64,000 bases of DNA from Desulfosporosinus acidiphilus SJ4 (GTDB taxonomy: Bacteria; Bacillota; Desulfitobacteriia; Desulfitobacteriales; Desulfitobacteriaceae): assembly GCF_000255115.2 (NCBI RefSeq), contig NC_018068.1, positions 4,559,977 to 4,623,976 of the forward strand, given 5' to 3'. Below, one piece after another: positions 24,331-36,423 of the stretch (positions are counted from its first letter, which is position 1; each line of letters begins with the position of its first letter). The translations under genes were made by a program, and so were the position numbers. The notes below the pieces were generated by a model. The model was given only the letters and a program-made list of their open reading frames with translations. It was not told where the DNA came from and did no database searches.

Positions 24331-24503
24331 ACCTTTTATTATTGAGTAATGAGCGCTAACTCCAAATAACACTCTTATTTTTTTATCTCCTCCATTTATT
24401 TACTTATCTGCTTAACTTTATTAATTGCCTTTATTTTAAGGGGGTGGTGGGCGACTTATTTACACCGATGTGGAACTTACTATTGAAAGGAGACTTTTAC
24501 TAC

Positions 24504-26425
24504 ATGAAAAAAAGTAAAAAATTCCTTACATCGTTAGCAATCATAAGTATGACCTTAACCACAGTTCCTTCACATGCTTTTGCTGAAAATGCCGCTTCAA
24601 CACGTCTAGCCGGCACAACCGCAGCACAAACTGCAACAGCAATTGCCGATCAAACCGGCTGGACCGGTACAGCAATTCTTGCATCTTCCGCTTCCTATGG
24701 TATGGTTGATGCTCTGACTGCCGGCCCTCTTTCTAGTTACCTAAAAGCTCCAATCCTGTTAACCGGTCCTGGAAATACCCTTGACCCTGATACTAAAGCA
24801 GAACTCACCAAACTCAATGTTAAAACAGTTTATGTCACAAGCGGTAAAGCTGTTATCAGCCAAGCAGTGCTTGACCAACTGTCAGCCATGGGCATTAAAG
24901 TTGTTTCCATCGGCGGACAAGATCGTGCTGAAACTTCCGTTAACATTGCTAAGAAAATGGTCGGCGTAACCAAAGTTGCCGTTGCCAATGGATTACAAGA
25001 TGCTCTTTCCATTGCTTCTATTGCTTCGGCTGCTAATGAACCAATCCTCATTACCGACAAGAATTCTGTTCCTCCTAGTGTTGCCGCCTTTTTAGCAGCT
25101 AACCCAAGCATTACTTCAACCGATATCATCGGCGGAACAGGTGTGATCAGTGATTCAGTAGCGGCTCAATTCCCTCATGCAACCCGTCATGCCGGAGCAA
25201 CGGCTTATGACACCAATAACCAAGTCATCCAAGATTTTAGTTCGTCCCTCCAGTTTGCCAACGTTTATGTTGCCAATGGCAAAACCGGGATTGATGCCCT
25301 TGCTGGTGCGCCTCTTGCAGCTCTGACAAAGTCCCCCATTGTCCTCACAGACGGAACTGTTCCTGCATCAGCAACCTTTGTCCACAGCAAATTAGCCGAA
25401 AATGCAGTTGTTACCGCTTTGGGCGGTGCAGCTGTTGTTTCCGACGCAGTGCGTACCGGTGTTCTCACTGGCAGTGTCCCTTCACAGGTCGGTCCATTGA
25501 ATGTCACATCTGTAACTGCTGTAAGTGCCAGCAGCATCAAAGTCCAGTTTAATACTGCTCCGGCTGATACCAGCAAAGTTACATTCTCGATTACAAATTC
25601 TGGGGCTCCTGTTACGGTTACTCCTACTTGGAACGATACCAAAACAGTCGCTACCCTGAGTGGTTCGGCAAACTTCCCTGAAGGAACCTATACCGTTAGT
25701 GTGAAAAATGGCGAATCTGATCTTGGTTCAAGCACCGTGGCTATTACAACGCAAAAGATCGCTAAGATAAACATTACCGCAACCAAACTTGCTGTTACTC
25801 AGGCTACCACAGGCAGCGGCATCGGCTATGCAACCTTTTCGGTTATTGACCAATATGGCAACGATATTACTAACAGCTATCTTGCTAATAACATTCAGTG
25901 GCAATGTGGAGTCGGTAACATTACTTCACCTTCACACGGTGTCTTAAAAGTTACACCAAACGGTCAGAACCTCCTTACCTTCTCTACGGTAGTTCTTACA
26001 GGCTATGATTCAACCTCAGGTGTTTCCGCCAGTGCAACGCTGCCTACCTCGACAGCAATGGGAACCTTAAGCAGCATTACGCTGAATAAACTGACCAACG
26101 TTAATAACACACCGCTTACTGCTGCCGATACCAGCGACACATGGTATGTTGATTACACCGCTAACGATATGAGCGGTAACCCTACTAACGACTATAACTT
26201 AGTTAAAAACGGTTTAATCTTAACCGGAGTAAATTCTGATCAATTGTCAGTTTCCAGTCCCTATGTCATTGCTAAAATTGTACAAGATCCTAACGACAGT
26301 AACAAAGCTGCAATTCAAGTTACAGTCACTGTTGACACTATTCAAACGGATATGCCTGTAACCATTACTGCTATGGGCTGGCAAGGGGCACCTTCGGGAT
26401 TACAGTTAACATTAAAGAAACAGCA
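24504..26425 (+). repeat. Left arm of a ~1.9 kb inverted repeat shared with 32115-34032
   Basis: The 5' halves of the two S-layer-like genes are near-identical in opposite orientation. For example 24657-24721 and 33815-33879 match over 65 bp without a difference, and most other differences I checked are third-position changes. Similarity is continuous to about 26425, after which indels and replacements begin. Confidence 0.8.
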
Positions 26426-28031
26426 ATCACTTTATTCATTTAATTTGATGGCGCCTTCATATAATGTCGCTTCAGGTGAATCTAAAATGATTCCCTTTAT
26501 GGCATACGATCAAAATGGAAAACAATTAACTAAATATGATGACATCAAAGATATTACTACTGGCCTTACCAGTTGTACGCTTGTGGAGAATGTTGACGGA
26601 ACTGCTAGTTTATTTAATACACCTATTGCTGTTTCAGGTAATCAAAGTATTCCTGAAATTTTAACTGCAGTCACAACAACTGGCAAATTTAGCTCCATAA
26701 CTCTTAATGTTCAGCCAACTGCGCAACCAAAGACGCTAACATTGAATACGTCAGTGCTATTAAGTACCATGCAGAATGGATCTGAACAATTCATTGACTT
26801 CGGCATTAACTACGGTGGTCTTAGCGTTAAAGATCAATATGGCCGAATCTATGATATGATTGGCAAGGCAACTACTTCGTCTGCTCTTACTATCGGCGGA
26901 ACTGTGGCAATCCCTAAATATTGTTACCAAGTCATAGCAACAACTTCCGGCTCTATTTCGGTAACCGGCACTGATATCTATGGTAACTCAACCTACTTGA
27001 CACCTAATCCGATTGCATCCGGGGCAAAAGGCATCTGCATCAAAGCAAATGCTGCAAATTCAACCAACCCAACGGGAGCAGGATCAGGAACTATTACTTT
27101 CAAACTAATTAATGCCCTTGATGGCCATCTCGGTACTGTTTCAGACCCCCATACGATTATTGATTCACAATCCGTGGATATCTCAGTTCTTGCCGACACG
27201 GATGTAAAAGGATACACAATCGACCCTGTCCCCAATCCAATCTATGCTGTAAATGATAACTCCACTCTTAGTGATTATGACATTGACTATGCTGCAAACC
27301 CCCATGTCTATGGAACGACATCTTCAGGATCAAAGATAAAACTTAGAGGCAAGCCAGTTATCGCTGTAGCTGTGGACTCAAAAGATTTTACAGTTGTTAA
27401 TAACGCGGCATCCGGTCCCATTGCCTATGATAAAGTGAAGGTCGTTGCTAACGATTTAGACCCAAGCAAAGATTCATCTAGTACGAATCTGACAGTAACA
27501 CTTAATGGCGCAGACGGTTTAGTCCACGCCCTGACAACACCCATTAAATCTTCAACAGCGTCACCCGTAACGAAAATGCTTGTTGCTGCAGTTGGAACCT
27601 ATTTACCAACCAACTCACTTAACGATATAGGTGATGTGGCTAAAATAAGCGCAAACTGGCTTGATAAGAATAAGATCATGGCTAGATTTGACAGCAACGG
27701 GACCGTTGGTACTTACGGTCCAACTCATAACGGATATGATAACACGGCTAATCTCAACACCATAGGTCGTGCTGCCGTCTACTTCTTAGGAGTTGACCAG
27801 TACGGAACAAAAGCAATTCCTTTAGATTCGATAAGAGTCGTTTCCGCGGTCAAAGCTGATGGAGTAACACCTAGCGCCTTTAGCATGAATCTTGATGGGA
27901 CGATCGTTACGCCACCTGATGTAGGAGATGTAATTAAACTAACGGCTGTTAGCAAAAATGGTATGATTAAATCTATCGAAATTATTGTACAGCCTACGGA
28001 TCCTACCTATATGTCAATCTATACCGACTAG
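24504..28031 (+). CDS. S-layer-like protein with three CWB2 repeats (paralogue A)
   Basis: An exported 1175-residue protein. The signal peptide is at residues 1-28 (MKKSKKFLTSLAIISM...SHAFA). Three CWB2 modules follow at about 33-325, each with the LAGTTAAQTATAIA...A.ILASS...DAL...PLSSYLKAPILLT pattern. They should fold as a trimer that binds an anionic wall polymer. The remaining ~850 residues are Thr/Ser/Asn/Val-rich beta-domain repeats (Ig/Big-like) without catalytic motifs, with very few Cys. The true start is the ATG with AAAGGAG at 24490, not the upstream in-frame GTG. It is about 80% alike to the gene at 30487-34032 over the first ~640 residues, then diverges. It is probably the main or an alternative S-layer subunit. 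Confidence 0.88.
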   Translation: MKKSKKFLTSLAIISMTLTTVPSHAFAENAASTRLAGTTAAQTATAIADQTGWTGTAILASSASYGMVDALTAGPLSSYLKAPILLTGPGNTLDPDTKAELTKLNVKTVYVTSGKAVISQAVLDQLSAMGIKVVSIGGQDRAETSVNIAKKMVGVTKVAVANGLQDALSIASIASAANEPILITDKNSVPPSVAAFLAANPSITSTDIIGGTGVISDSVAAQFPHATRHAGATAYDTNNQVIQDFSSSLQFANVYVANGKTGIDALAGAPLAALTKSPIVLTDGTVPASATFVHSKLAENAVVTALGGAAVVSDAVRTGVLTGSVPSQVGPLNVTSVTAVSASSIKVQFNTAPADTSKVTFSITNSGAPVTVTPTWNDTKTVATLSGSANFPEGTYTVSVKNGESDLGSSTVAITTQKIAKINITATKLAVTQATTGSGIGYATFSVIDQYGNDITNSYLANNIQWQCGVGNITSPSHGVLKVTPNGQNLLTFSTVVLTGYDSTSGVSASATLPTSTAMGTLSSITLNKLTNVNNTPLTAADTSDTWYVDYTANDMSGNPTNDYNLVKNGLILTGVNSDQLSVSSPYVIAKIVQDPNDSNKAAIQVTVTVDTIQTDMPVTITAMGWQGAPSGLQLTLKKQQSLYSFNLMAPSYNVASGESKMIPFMAYDQNGKQLTKYDDIKDITTGLTSCTLVENVDGTASLFNTPIAVSGNQSIPEILTAVTTTGKFSSITLNVQPTAQPKTLTLNTSVLLSTMQNGSEQFIDFGINYGGLSVKDQYGRIYDMIGKATTSSALTIGGTVAIPKYCYQVIATTSGSISVTGTDIYGNSTYLTPNPIASGAKGICIKANAANSTNPTGAGSGTITFKLINALDGHLGTVSDPHTIIDSQSVDISVLADTDVKGYTIDPVPNPIYAVNDNSTLSDYDIDYAANPHVYGTTSSGSKIKLRGKPVIAVAVDSKDFTVVNNAASGPIAYDKVKVVANDLDPSKDSSSTNLTVTLNGADGLVHALTTPIKSSTASPVTKMLVAAVGTYLPTNSLNDIGDVAKISANWLDKNKIMARFDSNGTVGTYGPTHNGYDNTANLNTIGRAAVYFLGVDQYGTKAIPLDSIRVVSAVKADGVTPSAFSMNLDGTIVTPPDVGDVIKLTAVSKNGMIKSIEIIVQPTDPTYMSIYTD

Positions 28032-28064
28032 AATAATCGAACCATTAAGTAGCGAATAAGATTT

Positions 28065-28100
28065 AAAGTCCTCAAATTCTAAGAATTTGAGGACTTTTCT
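28065..28100 (+). terminator. Rho-independent terminator of S-layer gene A
   Basis: A 15-bp perfect stem (AAAGTCCTCAAATTC / GAATTTGAGGACTTT) with a 3-nt loop, ending in TTTTCTT. It sits about 35 bp after the stop codon and between convergent genes, so it may act for the minus-strand gene as well. Confidence 0.85.
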
Positions 28101-28181
28101 TGCATCAATTTAATCGTTTTCATGGCGTAAGTTAGGAAAGCAAAAACGATGTTAGTCTTTAAATATTTTAACTAAATAAGA

Positions 28182-29894
28182 TTACTTTGTAACACCATAG
28201 ACAATATTTGAGAAAGTACTCGGCCCCTTGTCACAGACAGCCTGGACTTTGTAATAATACATCGTACCTGCAGTTGCAGAACTGTCCGTATAATTAGAAA
28301 CCGTTACCGATGTAAGCTTGTTATATGTCCCACCATAAGATGTTGCCCTATATATATTGTAATACATAGCATTAGGAACACCAATCCAACTGAGCAGGAT
28401 TTGTGAATTGCTTTGGGTGATTGCAACAAGATTCGTCGGAGGAGAAAAAACATTCTTGTCCAGTAATGCAGTCGCGTACGCTACACTTGAATACGGACCG
28501 GTGCCCGTTGTATTTGCTGCCTGCACTTTATAGTAATATGTTACACCCGAAAAAGCATTATCATCAATATAGTATGGGTAATTAACCGAAGCAATAAGTT
28601 TGTATACCCCCGAATCGGCTGTAGTTCTATATACATTATAGGAAACAGCATTATTTATTGAATCCCATGACAAATCAATCTCGTTCGTGTCCGGGGAATT
28701 TATTAAAACATGAGTCGGACTTCCTAGTACACCGTTATTATCTGCCCCAGTATTAGCACTACCTGAATTGGAATTGGCATTACCTGTATTGGTATTAGTA
28801 TTAGTATTAGTATTTGTATTAGTGTTTGTATTAGTGTTTGTATTAGTGTTTGTATTAGTGTTTGTATTAGTGTTTGTATTAGTGTTTGTATTAGTGTTGT
28901 TATCAGTATTAGAACCACTACATGCGGTAATAGTGCTTAGCAAATTGTCCGATACTACTGCTGTCCCACCTAAAGCAATTACTTTTTTAATGTTGTTCGC
29001 ATTTTCCGTAAAATAACTGTTCGTTTCTTCATTTAAAGGTTCTTTTACAAGAATGACCGGCGATTTCGTTAATGAAGCAAGTACAGATCCGGACAATGCA
29101 TCAGGGTAGGACTCACCTGTCGCAACATAACAAGTATTTAAATTAAGATCATTAGCAAATGCTTTTAATATTTCAATGTTCGTATTATAGTGATCACTGG
29201 AACTTAATCTTTGGGGCGCGGGAAGTTGATTAAAAATAGAATCACTAACATACGTTTCATCGCCTAGAACGTAGGTTTTCGTTACTGATTTTTCTATGTA
29301 ATCCTTTATATTCGTTTCAAGCTCAGTACTAGGTGTAAGAATAATTGGCATTCTTTTTTGTGCCGCTATCGGAGCAGCTGATAATACGTCCTGAAAATCA
29401 TCACCTGATGCAATCACAGCTTCAGTAGACTCTCCCAAAACTTGGGCAACATCTAAAGATGTCTCATAACGGTCCTGCCCAGCAATTCTCCAGACGTTAA
29501 TCCCTAAAGCTTCTATATCTTGCTCCACACCTGCAGAGAGTATCCCGGTTCCTCCAATCATAATGACACTCTTTACATTTAAGTTTAAAAGTTCTTCTTT
29601 CGTGGCATCTTCCAGATGATTGGTTGAATTAAGTAAGATAGGAGCATCATATTTTGCAGCAAGAGGTGCGGCGCACAAGGCATCAGGAAAATTCACCCCG
29701 CTGGCAACAATTGCGTAATAAGACGAAGTCCAACCTGCTTTGGCAATAGCTGAAGAAGTTTGATACTGGTCTTCACCGGCAAATCGCGCGCTTTGAATGT
29801 TTGATGAAGATAAAGCATAGGTACCTTTAGGGGCTATTATCATTGAAACAAACAAACAAAGTAAGATTGCTAAAAACTTAAGTTTCATTTTCAT
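28182..29894 (-). CDS. CWB2 cell-wall protein with Asn-Thr repeat linker and two fibronectin-III domains
   Basis: An exported protein of about 570 residues. The signal peptide is in the first ~28 residues (LKFLAILLCLFVSMIIAPKGTYA). Three CWB2 repeats follow at ~33-325 (ARFAGEDQYQTSSAIAKAGW start, IMIGGTGILSAGVEQDIEALG). A 34-36 residue stretch of alternating Asn-Thr links them to two fibronectin type III domains (~390-570), each with the YNVYRTT / YYYKVQA pattern. No enzyme motif is seen. I use the ATG at 29894; a TTG 12 nt upstream has no spacing to its ribosome site. It lies inside the segment flanked by the inverted S-layer genes and so would be inside any inversion. Possible role: adhesion or matrix contact. 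Confidence 0.85.
   Translation of the reverse strand: MKMKLKFLAILLCLFVSMIIAPKGTYALSSSNIQSARFAGEDQYQTSSAIAKAGWTSSYYAIVASGVNFPDALCAAPLAAKYDAPILLNSTNHLEDATKEELLNLNVKSVIMIGGTGILSAGVEQDIEALGINVWRIAGQDRYETSLDVAQVLGESTEAVIASGDDFQDVLSAAPIAAQKRMPIILTPSTELETNIKDYIEKSVTKTYVLGDETYVSDSIFNQLPAPQRLSSSDHYNTNIEILKAFANDLNLNTCYVATGESYPDALSGSVLASLTKSPVILVKEPLNEETNSYFTENANNIKKVIALGGTAVVSDNLLSTITACSGSNTDNNTNTNTNTNTNTNTNTNTNTNTNTNTNTNTNTNTNTNTGNANSNSGSANTGADNNGVLGSPTHVLINSPDTNEIDLSWDSINNAVSYNVYRTTADSGVYKLIASVNYPYYIDDNAFSGVTYYYKVQAANTTGTGPYSSVAYATALLDKNVFSPPTNLVAITQSNSQILLSWIGVPNAMYYNIYRATSYGGTYNKLTSVTVSNYTDSSATAGTMYYYKVQAVCDKGPSTFSNIVYGVTK
28785..28909 (-). repeat. 12-bp tandem repeat encoding (Asn-Thr)n
   Basis: About ten copies of a 12-bp unit (plus strand ATTAGTGTTTGT and variants) within the CWB2/FN3 gene. 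Unit length is a multiple of three, so copy-number change would alter linker length without a frameshift. Confidence 0.85.
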
Positions 29895-30486
29895 CAAGAC
29901 AATCAACTCTCTTTCAATTCTTAATCATCTTTCGTTTAGATTATTAATTAGAAGCTGAAATGTTCTTAGAATTTTATGTATCGGCTTATTAAAGAAATCC
30001 CTTCTGCCGTCAAAACAAATTCTTTAAAGCAGTATCAATAATCATGAATTTACTATACAAATTATAGCATAAAGAACTCAAAATTTCCTACCCTATTTAT
30101 TTCTTATTCATTTTAACTGGAACTATGATTTACCTGTGGTCTACGGCTACTTTAGATTTTCAGTTTGCATATTTCGCCTTAAAGCCCAGTTACTAAAGCT
30201 ATTATTTTAAAATTAATTTAATTCGCGTTATATCTTTACCCTTACAATACCCAGCAATAATGAACAAGTAGGTTCTGGGTATCTTTACCGTTTATGAGAT
30301 TCTGAACTTAGCGATCTTAAATCAATGCCCCTTTGTAGGCATTTTCTATATCCCACCGGGCTAATCTTCATGCCATAATACTGAAAAAGAGTCTTTCACT
30401 CGAAAGTGAAAGACTCTTTCCATTAGATAACTTAGTTAATAATAGAATGGTTTTTACTCTTGCTTGTTACAACCAACTGTTAGAAA
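29895..30486. other. Intergenic region upstream of CWB2/FN3 gene
   Basis: A 592-bp AT-rich spacer without a gene. It contains two possible minus-strand promoters for the FN3 gene. One is an extended -10 TGCTATAAT at 30061-30069; the other is TTGACG (30009-30014) and TAATAA (29987-29992) with a 16-bp spacer. The S-layer gene B terminator is at 30381-30420. Nothing else was recognised. Confidence 0.5.
30381..30420 (-). terminator. Rho-independent terminator of S-layer gene B
   Basis: A 15-bp stem (AAAGAGTCTTTCACT / AGTGAAAGACTCTTT) with a 4-nt loop, followed on the minus strand by TTTTTC, about 65 bp after the stop of the gene at 30487-34032. The sequence differs from the terminator of gene A although the layout is the same. 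Confidence 0.85.
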
Positions 30487-33400
30487 CTAATTATAGTTTC
30501 TAACAATCTTAACGGTCTTAACTAAACCATTATTGGTTACTGCTGAGAGTGTTACATAATCACCATTCTTGACTAAACCAGGAGCGCCCGTAGCATATAA
30601 AGTAGTAGCATCAAGATTTAGCGGAGAAACAGTAGTTTGACTATTCGCAATTGCAGTTGCTCTAGTAACACCATTGGATTGCCAATCAGTTGCAAAAATG
30701 TTCGATACATTCATGCCTTTTTTGCCATAGGAGTCTACAATATAGAAGTAGATATCCTTAGCGTTAGCTGCGCCATAGGCATCATTTCTTTGCAGACTAA
30801 CTGGATTAGCTGCACTACCAAATTCGGTGGCCATCGCTGTTGCGTTGTCAATATAGAGTGTAGTTCCATCATCAGACATATGCATACCAGCAGTACCATC
30901 GTAGTTAAGATCAAGCTCTTTAGCTACAGGACTTGTGGTTGACGAGGCGATAGGAGCAACAACAGTATGGATTAAACCATCTGCACCCATAAGGGTTACC
31001 GTCAAGTTCGTGCTTGCAGAGGTAAGTGAAGCATCAAGCGGCAAACCTATGACCTTTACCGAGTCATATGCATTTGTGCTATTAGAAATTCCACCTGCCA
31101 CAGTTACAGCTTTAAACTTGTTCGGGCTGTCAACACTCACACCTTCAATAAATCCAGGAGCTAACATTACCTTGGAACCGCCGGAAGTTGTACCATAGAT
31201 ATCAGGATTAGCGGCCTCATCTGTTTGCTGATGAGTATAAATTGCACCACTAGTTGATGAGTTTGCTTGAGCAAAAATAGGATTAGCTACTTTATCAATA
31301 GTATATCCTGTGATGTCCTTATTCTTAATAACTGAGAAAGTCATTGATGAAGAAGCAATTGCTAGATTCGTTTGACCGGCAAGAACATTAGCCTCGTCAG
31401 ATTTATTGATCAAATAGAAGTTAACAGTTTGAGTTCTGTTCACAGTGCTATTATCAGTGAGACTTGGGTTAGCTAAGACTTCAATACCATTACCGCCTCC
31501 TGCAATTGCATAAGTGATTGGACTTGAAGTTGTAACATTCTCACCGGAATTAAGTTGTTGTAGTTGAATAGCAGTACCTGTAGTAGCAGAAGTCATAGCA
31601 ACTACTTCATAGTTATAGCCATTACCCGTCTGAGTTACTGTATCCAGATCCATCGGGCGACCGTATTGGTCATTAACTGTTAAGCCACCATAGTTATAAC
31701 CAAAGTCAATACGTTGGTTAGCACCCGCTTGTAACGTATTAATAATTGAAGTAGAGTTTAACACCATGGTATCTGCTTTAGCAGTAGGTTGAACGTTGAT
31801 GGTGACAGAGCTGAACTTACCGGTTGAGGTATTAGCCGTAAGGATTTGAGGAACACTTTGATTTCCGGTAACATTAGTTGCTCTCATATACAAGCTGGCT
31901 GTTCCATCAGGATTTTGTACAAATCCAGCGCCGGTACTAGGATCCCCAAAGCCGGAAATTGTTACGATAGGATTCGAAGAGCTGCCAACAATATCACTAT
32001 ACTTAGTTAATTGTTTGCCGTCTTGGTCATAAGCTACAAAAGGAATCTGTTTGAGCTCACCAGACGCAATATTGTAAGAAGGAGCTTCTAAGGTAAAGGT
32101 ATCAACAGCGGACTGTTTCTTCAAGGTTAATTGTAAGCTTGAAGGAGCCCCTTGCCAACTCATAGCTGTAATGGTTACAGGCATATCCATTTGAACAGTG
32201 TCAGTGGTTACTGTAACTTGAATTGCAGCTTTGTTGCTGTCGTTAGGATCTTGTACAACCTTAGCGATAACATAAGGGCTGGAAACTGACAGCTGATCCG
32301 AATTTGTTCCGGTTAAGATTAAACCGTTTTTAACTAAGTTATAGTCATTAGTCGGATTGCCGCTCATATCGTTAGCAGTGTAATCAACATACCATGTGTC
32401 GCTGGTATCAGCAGCTCTGAGTGGTGTGTTGTTAACGTTGGTCAGTTTGTTCAGCGTAATGCTGCTCAAAGTTCCCATTGCTGTGGAGGTAGGCAGTGTT
32501 GCACTGGCAGAAACACCGGAGGTTGAATCATAGCCTGTGATTACTACCGTAGAGAAGGTAAGGAGGTTTTGGCCGTTTGGCGTAACTTTTAAGACACCGT
32601 GTGAAGGTGTTGTAATGTTACCAACTCCGCATTGCCATTGGATGTTATTAGCAAGATAGTTGCTGGTAATATCGTTGCCATATTGGTCAGTAACCGTGTA
32701 GGTAGCATAACCGATGCCACTACCAGTAGTTGCTTGGGTAACAGCAAGTTTGGTTGCGGTAATATTGATCTTAGCGATCTTTTGAGTTGTAATAGCTACG
32801 GTGCTTGAACCAAGGTCTGTATCACCATTTTTTACATCTACAGCATAAGTTCCTTCTGGGAAGTTAGCTGAACCACTCAGGGTAACAAATGTATTGGAAG
32901 AATCCCAAGTAGGAGTTACAGTAACAGGAGCTCCTGAATTTGTAACTGCAAAGGTAACTTTGCTGGTGTCAGCAGGAGCAGATGTGAATTGAACTTTGAA
33001 GCTGCTGGCACTGACAGCAGTGACGGAAGTAACAGCTACAGGTCCGCCTTGGTTAGGTGCACTGCCAGTAAGAACACCGGTGCGAACTGAATCAGATACA
33101 ACAGCTGCGCCGCCGAGAGCGGTTACAACTGCACCAGTAGCAAGTTTGCTGTGAACAAAGGTTGCTGCTGCAGGAACAGTTCCATCTGTGAGGACAATGG
33201 GGGACTTGGTCAGAGCTGCAAGAGGCGCACCTGCAAGAGCATCAATACCGGTTTGGCCATTGGCTACATAGACGTTGGTGAACTGAAGGGATGAACTGAA
33301 GTCTTGGATGACTTGATTGTTAGTATCATAAGCGGTGGTTCCAAAATGGCGAGTAGCGTTAGGGAATTGAGCTGCTACTGCATTGCTGATAACACCGGTT

Positions 33401-34032
33401 CCGCCGATAACATCGGTGGAAGTGATGCTTGGGTTAGCTGCTAAGTAAGCTGCAACACTTGAAGGAACGGAATCTTTGTCGGTTAAAAGGATTGGCTCAT
33501 TGGCAGCGGAAGCAATGGAAGCGATGGAAAGAGCATCTTGTAATCCATTAGCAACGGCAACTTTGGTTACGCCAACCATTTTCTTAGCAATGTTAACGGA
33601 AGTTTCAGCACGGTCTTGTCCGCCGAGGGAAACAACGTTAATACCCATTCCTGACAGTTGGTCAAGAACTGCTTGGCTGATGACAGCTTTACCGCTTGTG
33701 ACATAAACTGTTTTAACATTGAGTTTGGTGAGTTCTGCTTTAGTATCAGAATCAAGGGTATTTCCAGGACCTGTTAACAGAATTGGAGCTTTTAAGTAGC
33801 TAGAAAGTGGTCCTGCAGTCAGAGCATCAACCATACCATAGGAAGCGGAAGATGCAAGAATTGCTGTACCGGTCCAGCCAGTTTGATCGGCAATTGCTGC
33901 TGCAGTTTGAGCTGCGGTATTACCTGCTAAACGAGTTGGTACCGCATTGTCAGCGAAAGCATTGAACGGTACTACTGTTAAGGCCATACCAGCAATAGCT
34001 AATGATGCTAAGGCTTTGTTAGTTTTTTTCAT
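30487..34032 (-). CDS. S-layer-like protein with three CWB2 repeats (paralogue B)
   Basis: An exported 1181-residue protein. The signal peptide is at residues 1-28 (MKKTNKALASLAIAGMALTV...AFA). CWB2 modules lie at ~33-130, 133-225 and 227-325, followed by Ig-like beta repeats rich in Thr, Ser, Asn and Val up to the C-terminus. The first ~640 residues are close to paralogue A; from KKQSAVDTF onwards the two become mosaics of conserved (DYGGLTVNDQYGR-like) and unrelated blocks with length differences. A strong GAGGAGA box lies 9-10 nt before the ATG, and a long structured leader precedes it. The gene points towards A from the other side, enclosing the FN3 gene. Confidence 0.88.
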   Translation of the reverse strand: MKKTNKALASLAIAGMALTVVPFNAFADNAVPTRLAGNTAAQTAAAIADQTGWTGTAILASSASYGMVDALTAGPLSSYLKAPILLTGPGNTLDSDTKAELTKLNVKTVYVTSGKAVISQAVLDQLSGMGINVVSLGGQDRAETSVNIAKKMVGVTKVAVANGLQDALSIASIASAANEPILLTDKDSVPSSVAAYLAANPSITSTDVIGGTGVISNAVAAQFPNATRHFGTTAYDTNNQVIQDFSSSLQFTNVYVANGQTGIDALAGAPLAALTKSPIVLTDGTVPAAATFVHSKLATGAVVTALGGAAVVSDSVRTGVLTGSAPNQGGPVAVTSVTAVSASSFKVQFTSAPADTSKVTFAVTNSGAPVTVTPTWDSSNTFVTLSGSANFPEGTYAVDVKNGDTDLGSSTVAITTQKIAKINITATKLAVTQATTGSGIGYATYTVTDQYGNDITSNYLANNIQWQCGVGNITTPSHGVLKVTPNGQNLLTFSTVVITGYDSTSGVSASATLPTSTAMGTLSSITLNKLTNVNNTPLRAADTSDTWYVDYTANDMSGNPTNDYNLVKNGLILTGTNSDQLSVSSPYVIAKVVQDPNDSNKAAIQVTVTTDTVQMDMPVTITAMSWQGAPSSLQLTLKKQSAVDTFTLEAPSYNIASGELKQIPFVAYDQDGKQLTKYSDIVGSSSNPIVTISGFGDPSTGAGFVQNPDGTASLYMRATNVTGNQSVPQILTANTSTGKFSSVTINVQPTAKADTMVLNSTSIINTLQAGANQRIDFGYNYGGLTVNDQYGRPMDLDTVTQTGNGYNYEVVAMTSATTGTAIQLQQLNSGENVTTSSPITYAIAGGGNGIEVLANPSLTDNSTVNRTQTVNFYLINKSDEANVLAGQTNLAIASSSMTFSVIKNKDITGYTIDKVANPIFAQANSSTSGAIYTHQQTDEAANPDIYGTTSGGSKVMLAPGFIEGVSVDSPNKFKAVTVAGGISNSTNAYDSVKVIGLPLDASLTSASTNLTVTLMGADGLIHTVVAPIASSTTSPVAKELDLNYDGTAGMHMSDDGTTLYIDNATAMATEFGSAANPVSLQRNDAYGAANAKDIYFYIVDSYGKKGMNVSNIFATDWQSNGVTRATAIANSQTTVSPLNLDATTLYATGAPGLVKNGDYVTLSAVTNNGLVKTVKIVRNYN
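32115..34032 (-). repeat. Right arm of the ~1.9 kb inverted repeat shared with 24504-26425
   Basis: Covers the signal peptide, the three CWB2 modules and the first Ig-like domains of paralogue B. The arms are head-out, with promoters outside and the variable 3' gene parts inside the invertible segment. Confidence 0.8.
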
Positions 34033-34739
34033 GTAGTGAATATCTCCTCTCGTCTTTGGATCTCTTCTGTCTGGTGAATGAACTATCTCTTTTCCTTACT
34101 ACCTAGGACGTTTTTTAGTCGTCCCTCACCCCCTTAACATGAGTAGCACAATCTTTAGACATTGCGCAATATCTAAAAGCAGACCACAGGACTCTACGCG
34201 GGAGCGTCCCCCCAGAGGATGATGTCTCATCCCTCCTATGGTTACTCTTTAGAACCGCATTAAAATGAAGAAACCGCAAAAAGGGTCTACATTAGCTATA
34301 TGTATTCTCCATAATAACTAATATTCCTGCTTACTGTCCGATTTTTTTTTAAAGTCTTTTAAATCGGCCTTAAAATTGTCGGACAGCCTTCAGTTAGTAC
34401 TCATTTAGTTTACACTAAAACTTACTAGTTTTCCACCATTAGTCAAAAAATATACTGACTATTGGACTTAAATGAGTATACCATAATTTTGCGGTAAAGA
34501 TGTGAACATCTTGTTAACATCTAATAAATAAATTATTTAGAAGTCTGAGTACAGTACAATCTAAGTAAAATTTGGACCAGAAACCGTAAATATCCTGATT
34601 TATCCATGTTGTTGATTCAATTGCAGATCACCATTAACATTCTCAGCCACCAAAACTTGGTATTGCTAATGCTTCAATTAATAAACTTCTAAATGATATC
34701 TTCTTGATATCTTCTAATAATACTTCCTGCAATAAGTAG
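34033..34739. other. Long leader and promoter region of S-layer gene B
   Basis: A 707-bp spacer with no gene. Reading towards gene B it holds an inverted repeat with 8-bp arms CTGTCCGA/TCGGACAG (34334-34386). A G/C-rich section follows at 34180-34235. Next is a strong hairpin, TTTAGA-ATTGCGCAAT-TCTAAA (about 34153-34177). Then come a G-rich motif shared with the leader of gene A and a small GGACG/CGTCC hairpin (34107-34125). No known riboswitch consensus was recognised. The far end (34500-34739) is AT-rich and unremarkable. Confidence 0.5.
34475..34483 (-). promoter_or_regulatory. Extended -10 promoter candidate for S-layer gene B
   Basis: The minus strand reads TGGTATACT, an extended -10 box, without a convincing -35. 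It would give a leader of about 430 nt containing the hairpins described in the intergenic entry. Weak evidence on its own. Confidence 0.3.
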
Positions 34740-36329
34740 CTAATATCCCTTATACTTTAAGATTCCATCGTAGATCCCCATGGCAGCCTTATTTTGAAAA
34801 CCCGGTGATCCCAATAACTTTTCTTCATCTGGGTTAGAAATGAAGCCGATTTCTATCAGTACTGCCGGCATTTTAGTATTTTTAATCACGTAAAATGGAG
34901 CATCTTTTACACCCCGGTCATTTAAGTTTATCGCTGCAACTAATTCGCTTTGTATATTCTTAGCAAGGGTTAAGGATTGATCAGCTACCGGACTGGCCGA
35001 ACTGTAATAGGTGGTTGTCCCAGAAGCGCTGGGGTTGCTGAAGGAATCATTGTGCAGGCAAATAAACATATCTGCCTGAGCGTCGTTGGCAATCTTTGTT
35101 CGCGCCTGAAGATCTGAAAGCTCAGAATAGGTCCCTGTGGCCGGGGATACATCGGTAGTGCGAGTCATGATGACCCGAGCCCCTGCAGAACGCAGATCAT
35201 TTTCCAAATCCAGCCCAACGGCGAGGGTGTTGTTTTTTTCATAAGTTCCTGCCGGTCCTATCGCACCGGTATCCGGACCTCCATGTCCCGGGTCGACAAC
35301 AATCGTCACTCCGGCCAATAATGAGGGCGGCTGTATTGTCCCTTCCAGCATGCCTGTTACTTGATCGCTGATTACAGCCGTCCCCCCGACAATCACCATG
35401 CTGTAGGGGCTTTCTGTAGGTCTTGATAAAACAGAGTAGGTTGGTCCTGGCAGTGTTGTTTTTTGAGTCATAACAATCTCCGCACGCTGCTTGGCGGCTA
35501 AGGCTCCCGCTGCAAGAGCATCCGGGAAGTTCTCCCCTGTTACGACATAGGTCGTTGTCGCAGGGAGATCATTCTGAGCAAAGTCATAGACATCAGCAGC
35601 GGTCTCGTAGCGGTCATTTCCGGCAATTCTTTGGACATTTTTTAAGTCGGTTAAGGTTGAACTGGAAATTACGGCTTCACCGCCTACAACAATGGTATTG
35701 AGGTCTCCGTTTTGCTGCAGTTTGTCCAATTCTTGTTTTGTAGAATCAGGCATGGTCTTGGCTTCCGTGAGGAGAATTGGGGTTTCTGTCTCACCAGCGT
35801 AAGCTGAAATAGCCAAAGCGTCGGGAAACTGGTCACCGTTTGCCAGAATCACTTGTCCTTTGCTGCCTACACGTTCAGCAACCTTTTGAGCCGTTTCAAA
35901 TTGGTCCTGCCCCCAGATCCGTTCCGGAGCGGGAAAACCTGCATTTTCTAAATCTGTTTCGACTTGATTGCTTAAGGCCTTAACCCCGCCCAAAAGGATA
36001 ACCTTTTTGGCGCCTAAACGTTTAATTTCCTGCATCACATAAGGATCGACCCCTTGGACCGGTGTTAAAAGAATAGGGGCATCCAATTGATGGGAAAGTG
36101 GCGCTGCAACCAAGGCATCCGGAAAATTGTCACAGTTCGCCAAGAGAACTGTATCCGCATGCTGCCAGCCCGCTTGCGAAACTTTTATGGCAGTGTCAAT
36201 TTGCCGCGCCCCATAAATCCGTGTGGTCCCAAAATCCAAAGGGGCCGCATTGGCAGGATTTTGAAACCCAATCAGAAAACCAAAAACAGCAATAAGTATC
36301 CCGATAATTTTCCATTTTAGCGGTGCCAA
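34740..36329 (-). CDS. N-acetylmuramoyl-L-alanine amidase with three CWB2 repeats
   Basis: An exported zinc amidase that would cleave the bond between muramic acid and the stem peptide. It starts at a TTG with a perfect AAGGAGG 7 nt upstream. The signal peptide is at ~1-28 (KIIGILIAVFGFLIGF...ANAA). Three CWB2 repeats follow, at roughly 33-325 (RIYGARQIDTAIKVSQAGW, VILLGGVKALSNQV). The C-terminal Amidase_3 domain at ~340-529 has VVDPGHGGPDTGA (zinc His), the Glu in TYEKNN, FICLHNDS (zinc His) and VLIEIGFISNPDEE (catalytic Glu). It lies 95 bp after the subtilase gene in the same direction, probably co-transcribed. N-terminal anchoring would place the enzyme in the S-layer/wall zone. Confidence 0.93.
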   Translation of the reverse strand: MAPLKWKIIGILIAVFGFLIGFQNPANAAPLDFGTTRIYGARQIDTAIKVSQAGWQHADTVLLANCDNFPDALVAAPLSHQLDAPILLTPVQGVDPYVMQEIKRLGAKKVILLGGVKALSNQVETDLENAGFPAPERIWGQDQFETAQKVAERVGSKGQVILANGDQFPDALAISAYAGETETPILLTEAKTMPDSTKQELDKLQQNGDLNTIVVGGEAVISSSTLTDLKNVQRIAGNDRYETAADVYDFAQNDLPATTTYVVTGENFPDALAAGALAAKQRAEIVMTQKTTLPGPTYSVLSRPTESPYSMVIVGGTAVISDQVTGMLEGTIQPPSLLAGVTIVVDPGHGGPDTGAIGPAGTYEKNNTLAVGLDLENDLRSAGARVIMTRTTDVSPATGTYSELSDLQARTKIANDAQADMFICLHNDSFSNPSASGTTTYYSSASPVADQSLTLAKNIQSELVAAINLNDRGVKDAPFYVIKNTKMPAVLIEIGFISNPDEEKLLGSPGFQNKAAMGIYDGILKYKGY

Positions 36330-36423
36330 TATGATCCCTCCTTCGTTGTTACAATGCAACAATTCTTTGTAATTCGACATTATTAAGCGATGTCCTGCCA
36401 AAAACGTGCCTTCTTATTCCTTC

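Follow-up and report, generated by a model that had tools for sequence, protein, structure and literature searches.

A convergent pair of S-layer-type genes in Desulfosporosinus acidiphilus SJ4, with signs of recombination between the 5' halves and a conserved leader RNA at one end

The window analysed here is the whole stretch of 64,000 nucleotides running from position 4,559,977 to 4,623,976 of the 4,926,837-bp chromosome of Desulfosporosinus acidiphilus SJ4 (SJ4 hereafter). As the first-pass annotation stated, two large CWB2 genes face each other: gene A (+) and gene B (-) are convergent, with three CW_binding_2 domains each and with signal peptides that we read from the sequence (Table 1). 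Between them lies a middle gene whose orientation serves as a marker for the segment that an inversion would flip; at 28786-28905 it contains a 12-base tandem repeat that encodes the Asn-Thr run and is likely a length-variable linker. Upstream of B, on the same strand, lie two CWB2 genes, for an amidase and a subtilase; farther out, on the opposite strand, there is a CWB2 family-18 glycosyl hydrolase. This block, together with an S-layer-type gene at the position of B, is present in most of the Desulfosporosinus loci examined. The family of wall-bound proteins is very large in SJ4, with 101 CWB2 domain matches in the whole genome.

A and B appear to be paralogous genes of S-layer type. This reading is based on the three CWB2 domains, the similarity to C. 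difficile SlpA and the codon adaptation of B, which is the highest in the window. Sequence comparison shows that B matches SlpA, Cwp6 and Cwp8 of C. difficile in the CWB2 regions; with the NCBIfam SlpA model the score is far under the cut-off (81 against 650 bits). Codon adaptation amounts to 0.840 for B, 0.824 for a tandem pair elsewhere on the chromosome (T, copies T1 and T2) and 0.807 for A. All three lie above the values of the remaining genes (window mean 0.734, sd 0.029) and suggest that the S-layer-type genes are highly expressed. Given its strong codon adaptation, A does not seem to be decayed; it is probably well expressed now or was so until recently, from a putative promoter of its own or by passage through the site of B. 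The codon bias of its 3' half (0.784) fits expression from its own promoter as well as it fits visits to the site of B.

Table 1. Features of the locus and of the related tandem copies. Positions refer to the window unless stated otherwise.
Feature	Position	Strand	Description
Gene A	24504-28031	+	S-layer-type protein, 1175 aa, 3 CWB2 (CW_binding_2) domains, signal peptide; leaderless partner
Gene B	30487-34032	-	S-layer-type protein, 1181 aa, 3 CWB2 (CW_binding_2) domains, signal peptide; adjoins CWB2 amidase
Middle gene	28182-29906	-	CWB2 and fibronectin type III domains, Asn-Thr repeat; between A and B
Terminator-like site	28065-28097		15-bp stem; between A and middle gene
Left arm (5' half of A)	24485-26545	+	2061 nt, 85% complementary to 31991-34051
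Right arm (5' half of B)	31991-34051	-	Partner of 24485-26545
3' half of A	26430-28031	+	Clusters with FKB_b (gene b of Desulfosporosinus sp. FKB), unlike its own 5' half
3' half of B	30487-32110	-	Clusters with the corresponding half of T1/T2
End of B leader	34033-34135	-	TAAGGGGGTGAG, hairpin GGGACG-ACTAAAAAA-CGTCCT, ribosome-binding site GAGAGGAGA
Leader RNA of B	34153-34256	-	About 105 nt; three-way junction P1-P2-P3, then hairpin P4 with loop UGCGCAA
CWB2 N-acetylmuramoyl-L-alanine amidase	34740-36401	-	Marks expression site genus-wide
Tandem copies T1/T2	~1.18 Mb (locus L045:4425-12371; chromosome 1.178-1.186 Mb)		Pair of S-layer-type genes, each with a leader, coding for identical proteins; 4413 bp apart

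When searching the window for inverted repeats of 30 nt or more, the 2-kb arms formed by the 5' halves of A and B are the sole find, a single inverted repeat far above chance expectation. Their protein alignment is gap-free up to codon 687. Nucleotide identity is roughly 73-97% per 90 bases up to position 26,425 and collapses from ~90% to ~60% at 26425-26510, which confirms the boundary given earlier for the 5' halves. The description of these halves as near-identical does not hold, however: the arms are 85% identical and thus 15% diverged (dN 0.04-0.09, dS 0.3-0.7 between A and B). An identical stretch of 65 bp is indeed found at 24657, but it is not the only one, as a second and longer run covers 67 bp at 24787-24853. 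The 3' halves do differ as was claimed, with an amino acid identity of 43% between A and B. Model hybrids created by inversion between the arms are free of internal stops and keep the reading frame.

The two ends of the pair had been proposed to carry separate promoters, possibly of different strength. The upstream regions are different, with 32% identity over 250 nt, but the promoters themselves are not borne out: upstream of A we count 2 promoter-like sites against 4.4 expected in shuffles, so there is no excess, and promoter scans are uninformative. What makes the ends regulatorily unequal is a leader RNA that is present at B only. The region upstream of B is strikingly conserved in 17/17 genomes compared at that position, and a covariance model locates three SJ4 copies of the leader, precisely at B, T1 and T2 (the latter two at G000:C3:1182118-1182219 and 1186531-1186632), and none at A. 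Upstream of A just TAAGGGGGTG is retained, without the GGGACG/CGTCCT hairpin. Full-model scans for a degenerate leader before A and before gene L of D. acididurans M1 (see below) stay at noise level (3.1 and 9.1 bits, respectively). More conserved blocks lie upstream of the B leader at 34340-34600 (-), namely GTGGAAAACTA..GTTTTAGTGTAAACT and the inverted pair TGTCCGA/TCGGACA; these are possibly promoter or regulator sites.

Based on the same type of model, the leader is found in 25/30 genomes of the genus, with 1-3 copies each, and in 47/60 genomes and 16/20 genera of the order, mostly as a single copy outside the genus. Wherever there is room downstream (33/33 loci), an open frame begins 22-181 nt past the leader motif. 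Apart from those at or near contig ends, these frames encode 739-1445 aa with a signal-peptide-like start. Since the leader is found on B and not on A, and precedes large secreted-protein genes across the order, we take B to occupy an order-wide S-layer expression site with A as its leaderless partner.

The structure of the leader is reflected in its covariation. Among 53 distinct sequences 96% of the cells pair and 14 of the 25 pairs change on both sides. Shuffles give 46 double changes where the data show 144, and pairing falls to 44-55% in slid versions. Covariation supports the pairing at genus level too. These counts lean towards the model because the alignment was fitted to it; P1 and P2 show their double changes directly in the unfitted sequences as well. 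The pairs of hairpin P4 hardly vary, and this hairpin could be a signal at the DNA level instead of the RNA level. Almost every leader sequence would also allow an alternative helix between a 5' UCUAAA and the P4 strand UUUAGA. As its core scarcely varies and its flanking positions are mixed, two exclusive folds are only suggested.

Apparently the leader is an undescribed structured RNA that is found order-wide on coat-protein genes. A question separate from the recombination of the gene pair is whether it corresponds to, or is a branch of, the SLH motif, a riboswitch candidate published by Stav et al. (2019, PMC6429828), and hence would not be new. According to that paper, the SLH motif likewise is a structured RNA upstream of Firmicutes S-layer genes, with ~80 examples in Synergistaceae, Clostridia and Negativicutes. 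It is, however, tied to genes for SLH-domain proteins, whereas all proteins tested from the leader loci (10/10) carry CWB2. Also, the leader yields no match in Rfam 15 at E<=1, nor any match outside the order in a sample of 299 genomes of the phylum (stricter filters may lose weak matches in this sample). We therefore give the SLH-motif identity a small, though real, chance. The open literature yielded no publication on the S-layers of Desulfosporosinus or on the leader.

A counterpart of the locus is seen in the sister species D. acididurans (M1), which shows the same convergent arrangement: L (+), middle gene (-), R (-), amidase, subtilase and hydrolase. Its middle gene is a 70% identical ortholog with the same orientation as in SJ4. 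Further convergent pairs exist in two other species (loci L061 and L062), and divergent or tandem arrangements occur elsewhere. By signal peptide (90% identity) and leader (85%), B is the ortholog of R. The signal peptide of T is 93% identical to that of a third copy in M1, and A and L share 63%, a value equal to that of A and B. Identity between the upstream regions of A and L is at noise level, so the orthology of these two rests on the layout together with the weak signal-peptide match. Neither L nor R was retained as ortholog of the 3' half of A, both being distant. The T copies, located ~1.5 Mb from A and B if the chromosome is circular, contain an exact identity run of 2747 bp, which indicates a recent duplication or conversion.

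The pairing of orthologs obtained from signal peptides and leaders breaks down from about codon 31 onward. For codons 346-638 the identity is 90% between A and B and 88% between L and R, against ~70% for both A-L and B-R. In the corresponding tree A groups with B (support 100/99.8) and L with R (96/96); constrained trees are rejected for A+L (p=3e-32) as well as for B+R (p=1e-4). Synonymous divergence follows the same pattern: dS over these codons is 0.5-0.6 for A-B versus 1.0-1.5 between orthologs. Within M1 the dS between L and R is as low as 0.02 in the N-terminal part, where an identical stretch of 591 bp occurs. A MaxChi-type test on A places a break at codon 643, with a chi2 of 187 compared to a null maximum of 24. 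Before this codon the informative sites are 178:17 for B, and after it they are 45:152, favouring FKB_b. Consistently, the tree of the 3' halves unites A and FKB_b (100/99.8) and rejects A+B (p=2.5e-4).

The break at codon 643 and the trees identify A as a mosaic in which the 5' half has been overwritten by B-type sequence. Trees, dS and the MaxChi-type test together establish that the 5' arms were homogenised in each genome independently. Three findings give strong support to the earlier claim that the arms recombine: the 5' halves form genome-specific clades, A shows an abrupt mosaic break, and in D. acididurans homogenisation is recent. It might be argued that A and B are plain duplicates, with 5' halves kept alike by wall-binding constraint alone and without recombination. 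The low dN/dS in the arms does indicate purifying selection. Protein constraint is nonetheless insufficient, because synonymous divergence within a genome is lower than between orthologs: constraint cannot push dS below the level of orthologs, nor can it yield genome-specific clades or the break at codon 643. We regard plain duplication as very improbable, and an origin of the arms by constraint only was ruled out by dS and trees.

A more intricate matter is the way in which the arms recombine. The first-pass annotation interpreted the pair as an inversion switch. In a RecA-dependent form, as in Campylobacter fetus sap (Dworkin and Blaser 1996, cited in PMC4902306) or Lactobacillus acidophilus slp, a crossover between the arms would flip the interior at 24.5-34 kb and swap the 3' halves between the leader-bearing promoter of B and the upstream region of A. 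Several features suit such a switch: the inverted 2-kb arms are in frame and gap-free, so that hybrids stay open; the upstream regions are unequal with a leader RNA at B only; D. acididurans shares the layout, with its 591-bp identical stretch; and two more species have convergent pairs. Nonetheless, the data do not support an inversion switch, and we consider a regular one unlikely. The 15% divergence of the arms (with dS at the values given above) argues against frequent switching in SJ4, and the middle gene is oriented alike in both species that have the layout, although this last argument is weak as two observations agree by chance half of the time. Moreover, homogenisation is equally strong in direct and distant paralogs. 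The window contains no resolvase or integrase match (these families are present elsewhere in the genome), but a RecA-type switch would not need a recombinase nearby.

Examples of pairs in direct orientation are ORI_Y and ORI_Y2 (genome G003), which are 100% identical across the last ~800 aa, and FKB_a and FKB_b, with up to 92% identity mid-gene. Since paralogs in direct orientation and at a distance are homogenised to the same extent, ectopic gene conversion suffices to account for the arms. We favour conversion over crossover as the usual outcome of recombination between them, given the homogenisation of direct pairs, the clade formed by the 3' halves of B and T, the divergence of the arms and the constant orientation of the middle gene in both species. 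Gene conversion and a double crossover cannot be told apart from the sequences alone. Inversion between the arms is possible as a rare event, with no regular switch in SJ4. D. acididurans M1 is a better inversion candidate than SJ4 because of its 591 identical bp.

Overall, it is quite probable that A and B are paralogs, with B at an order-wide expression site, that their arms recombine within the genome, mainly through ectopic conversion, and that there is no regular switch. B would then sit downstream of the conserved structured leader RNA, which probably controls the translation or stability of a very abundant S-layer mRNA, with the leaderless A as its partner on the other strand. Homologous recombination within the genome (presumably RecA-type, and mainly ectopic gene conversion) would repeatedly copy the wall-binding 5' half of either gene over its counterpart in the other. 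The 3' halves, which may form the lattice or surface, would diversify and now and then be replaced. An inversion between the arms would yield intact hybrids and place the 3' half of A behind the leader of B. A more far-reaching proposal combines two elements: the leader as an undescribed class of regulatory RNA that marks, throughout the order, the principal site of S-layer expression, and a rare inversion by which A swaps its 3' half there, giving alternative surfaces. In this combination we find it decidedly unlikely.

We view the locus as an S-layer gene family that recombines and whose expression site is marked by a leader; recombining S-layer gene families as such are already known. The sapA family of Campylobacter fetus reportedly has one promoter on an invertible segment. 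The SJ4 pair resembles it in having S-layer genes with common 5' parts and different 3' parts that recombine within the genome; unlike in C. fetus, the genes are convergent with separate upstream regions and the arms are not identical. In RecA-type inversion switches the recombining segments are expected to stay near-identical through use. Inverted homologous segments within S-layer genes are present in SJ4, but at 85% identity and with a longest run of 67 bp they are not near-identical; D. acididurans comes partly up to this with its 591 bp.

For Lactobacillus acidophilus slpA/slpB inversion is established (Boot et al. 1996, via PMC6015585). There slpA is at the expression site in 99.7% of the cells and slpB in the rest, slpB is reported to be promoterless and the slp segment spans ~6 kb (PMC6015585). 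Both systems comprise two S-layer genes of the same family with unequal ends (in slp one expressed and one silent, here a leader at B only). The SJ4 locus differs by its 15% diverged arms and the third gene in between, and no inverted form is known. As near-identical arms are absent and inversion is not observed, the SJ4 pair is not filed with the slp-type or other RecA-type inversion switches.

Two comparisons with C. difficile are relevant as well. The cwpV switch uses the site-specific recombinase RecV and 21-bp imperfect repeats 195 bp apart (PMC2784873). Like the SJ4 proteins, its product is a CWB2 wall protein with three PF04122 motifs, and cwpV is controlled by DNA inversion. The window shows no sign of a switch of this type within the repeats of at least 30 nt and the resolvase and integrase families searched, the cwpV repeats being 21 bp. 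With the SlpA/CWP family the locus has in common the anchoring by CWB2 and the clustering with other CWB2 proteins and polysaccharide genes. It is distinguished by the N-terminal position of CWB2 in the SJ4 proteins and by an NCBIfam SlpA score well under the cut-off.

Few proteins of the cell are as abundant as those of the S-layer, but the control of their mRNA and the diversification of the surface are poorly known except in some pathogens and lactobacilli. The SJ4 locus displays both an order-conserved leader RNA and a recombining partner gene. The latter illustrates how recombination may keep wall-binding halves alike as the exposed halves go on changing. With the leader as a guide, the principal S-layer gene could be located in any genome of the order, and tests for riboswitch activity or autoregulation have a concrete target in it.

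Two minor observations concern loci in other genomes. Between L068:4790-8727 and L063:14036-17530, from two species, an S-layer gene with its leader RNA is reversed between the same neighbours (a GH18 gene and a 117-aa ORF), apparently by a flip of the whole gene. In Desulfosporosinus sp. FKB (L050:6247-9817) an S-layer-type gene is spread over three frames with an internal stop and is either a pseudogene or an assembly error; the leader RNA is still present upstream.
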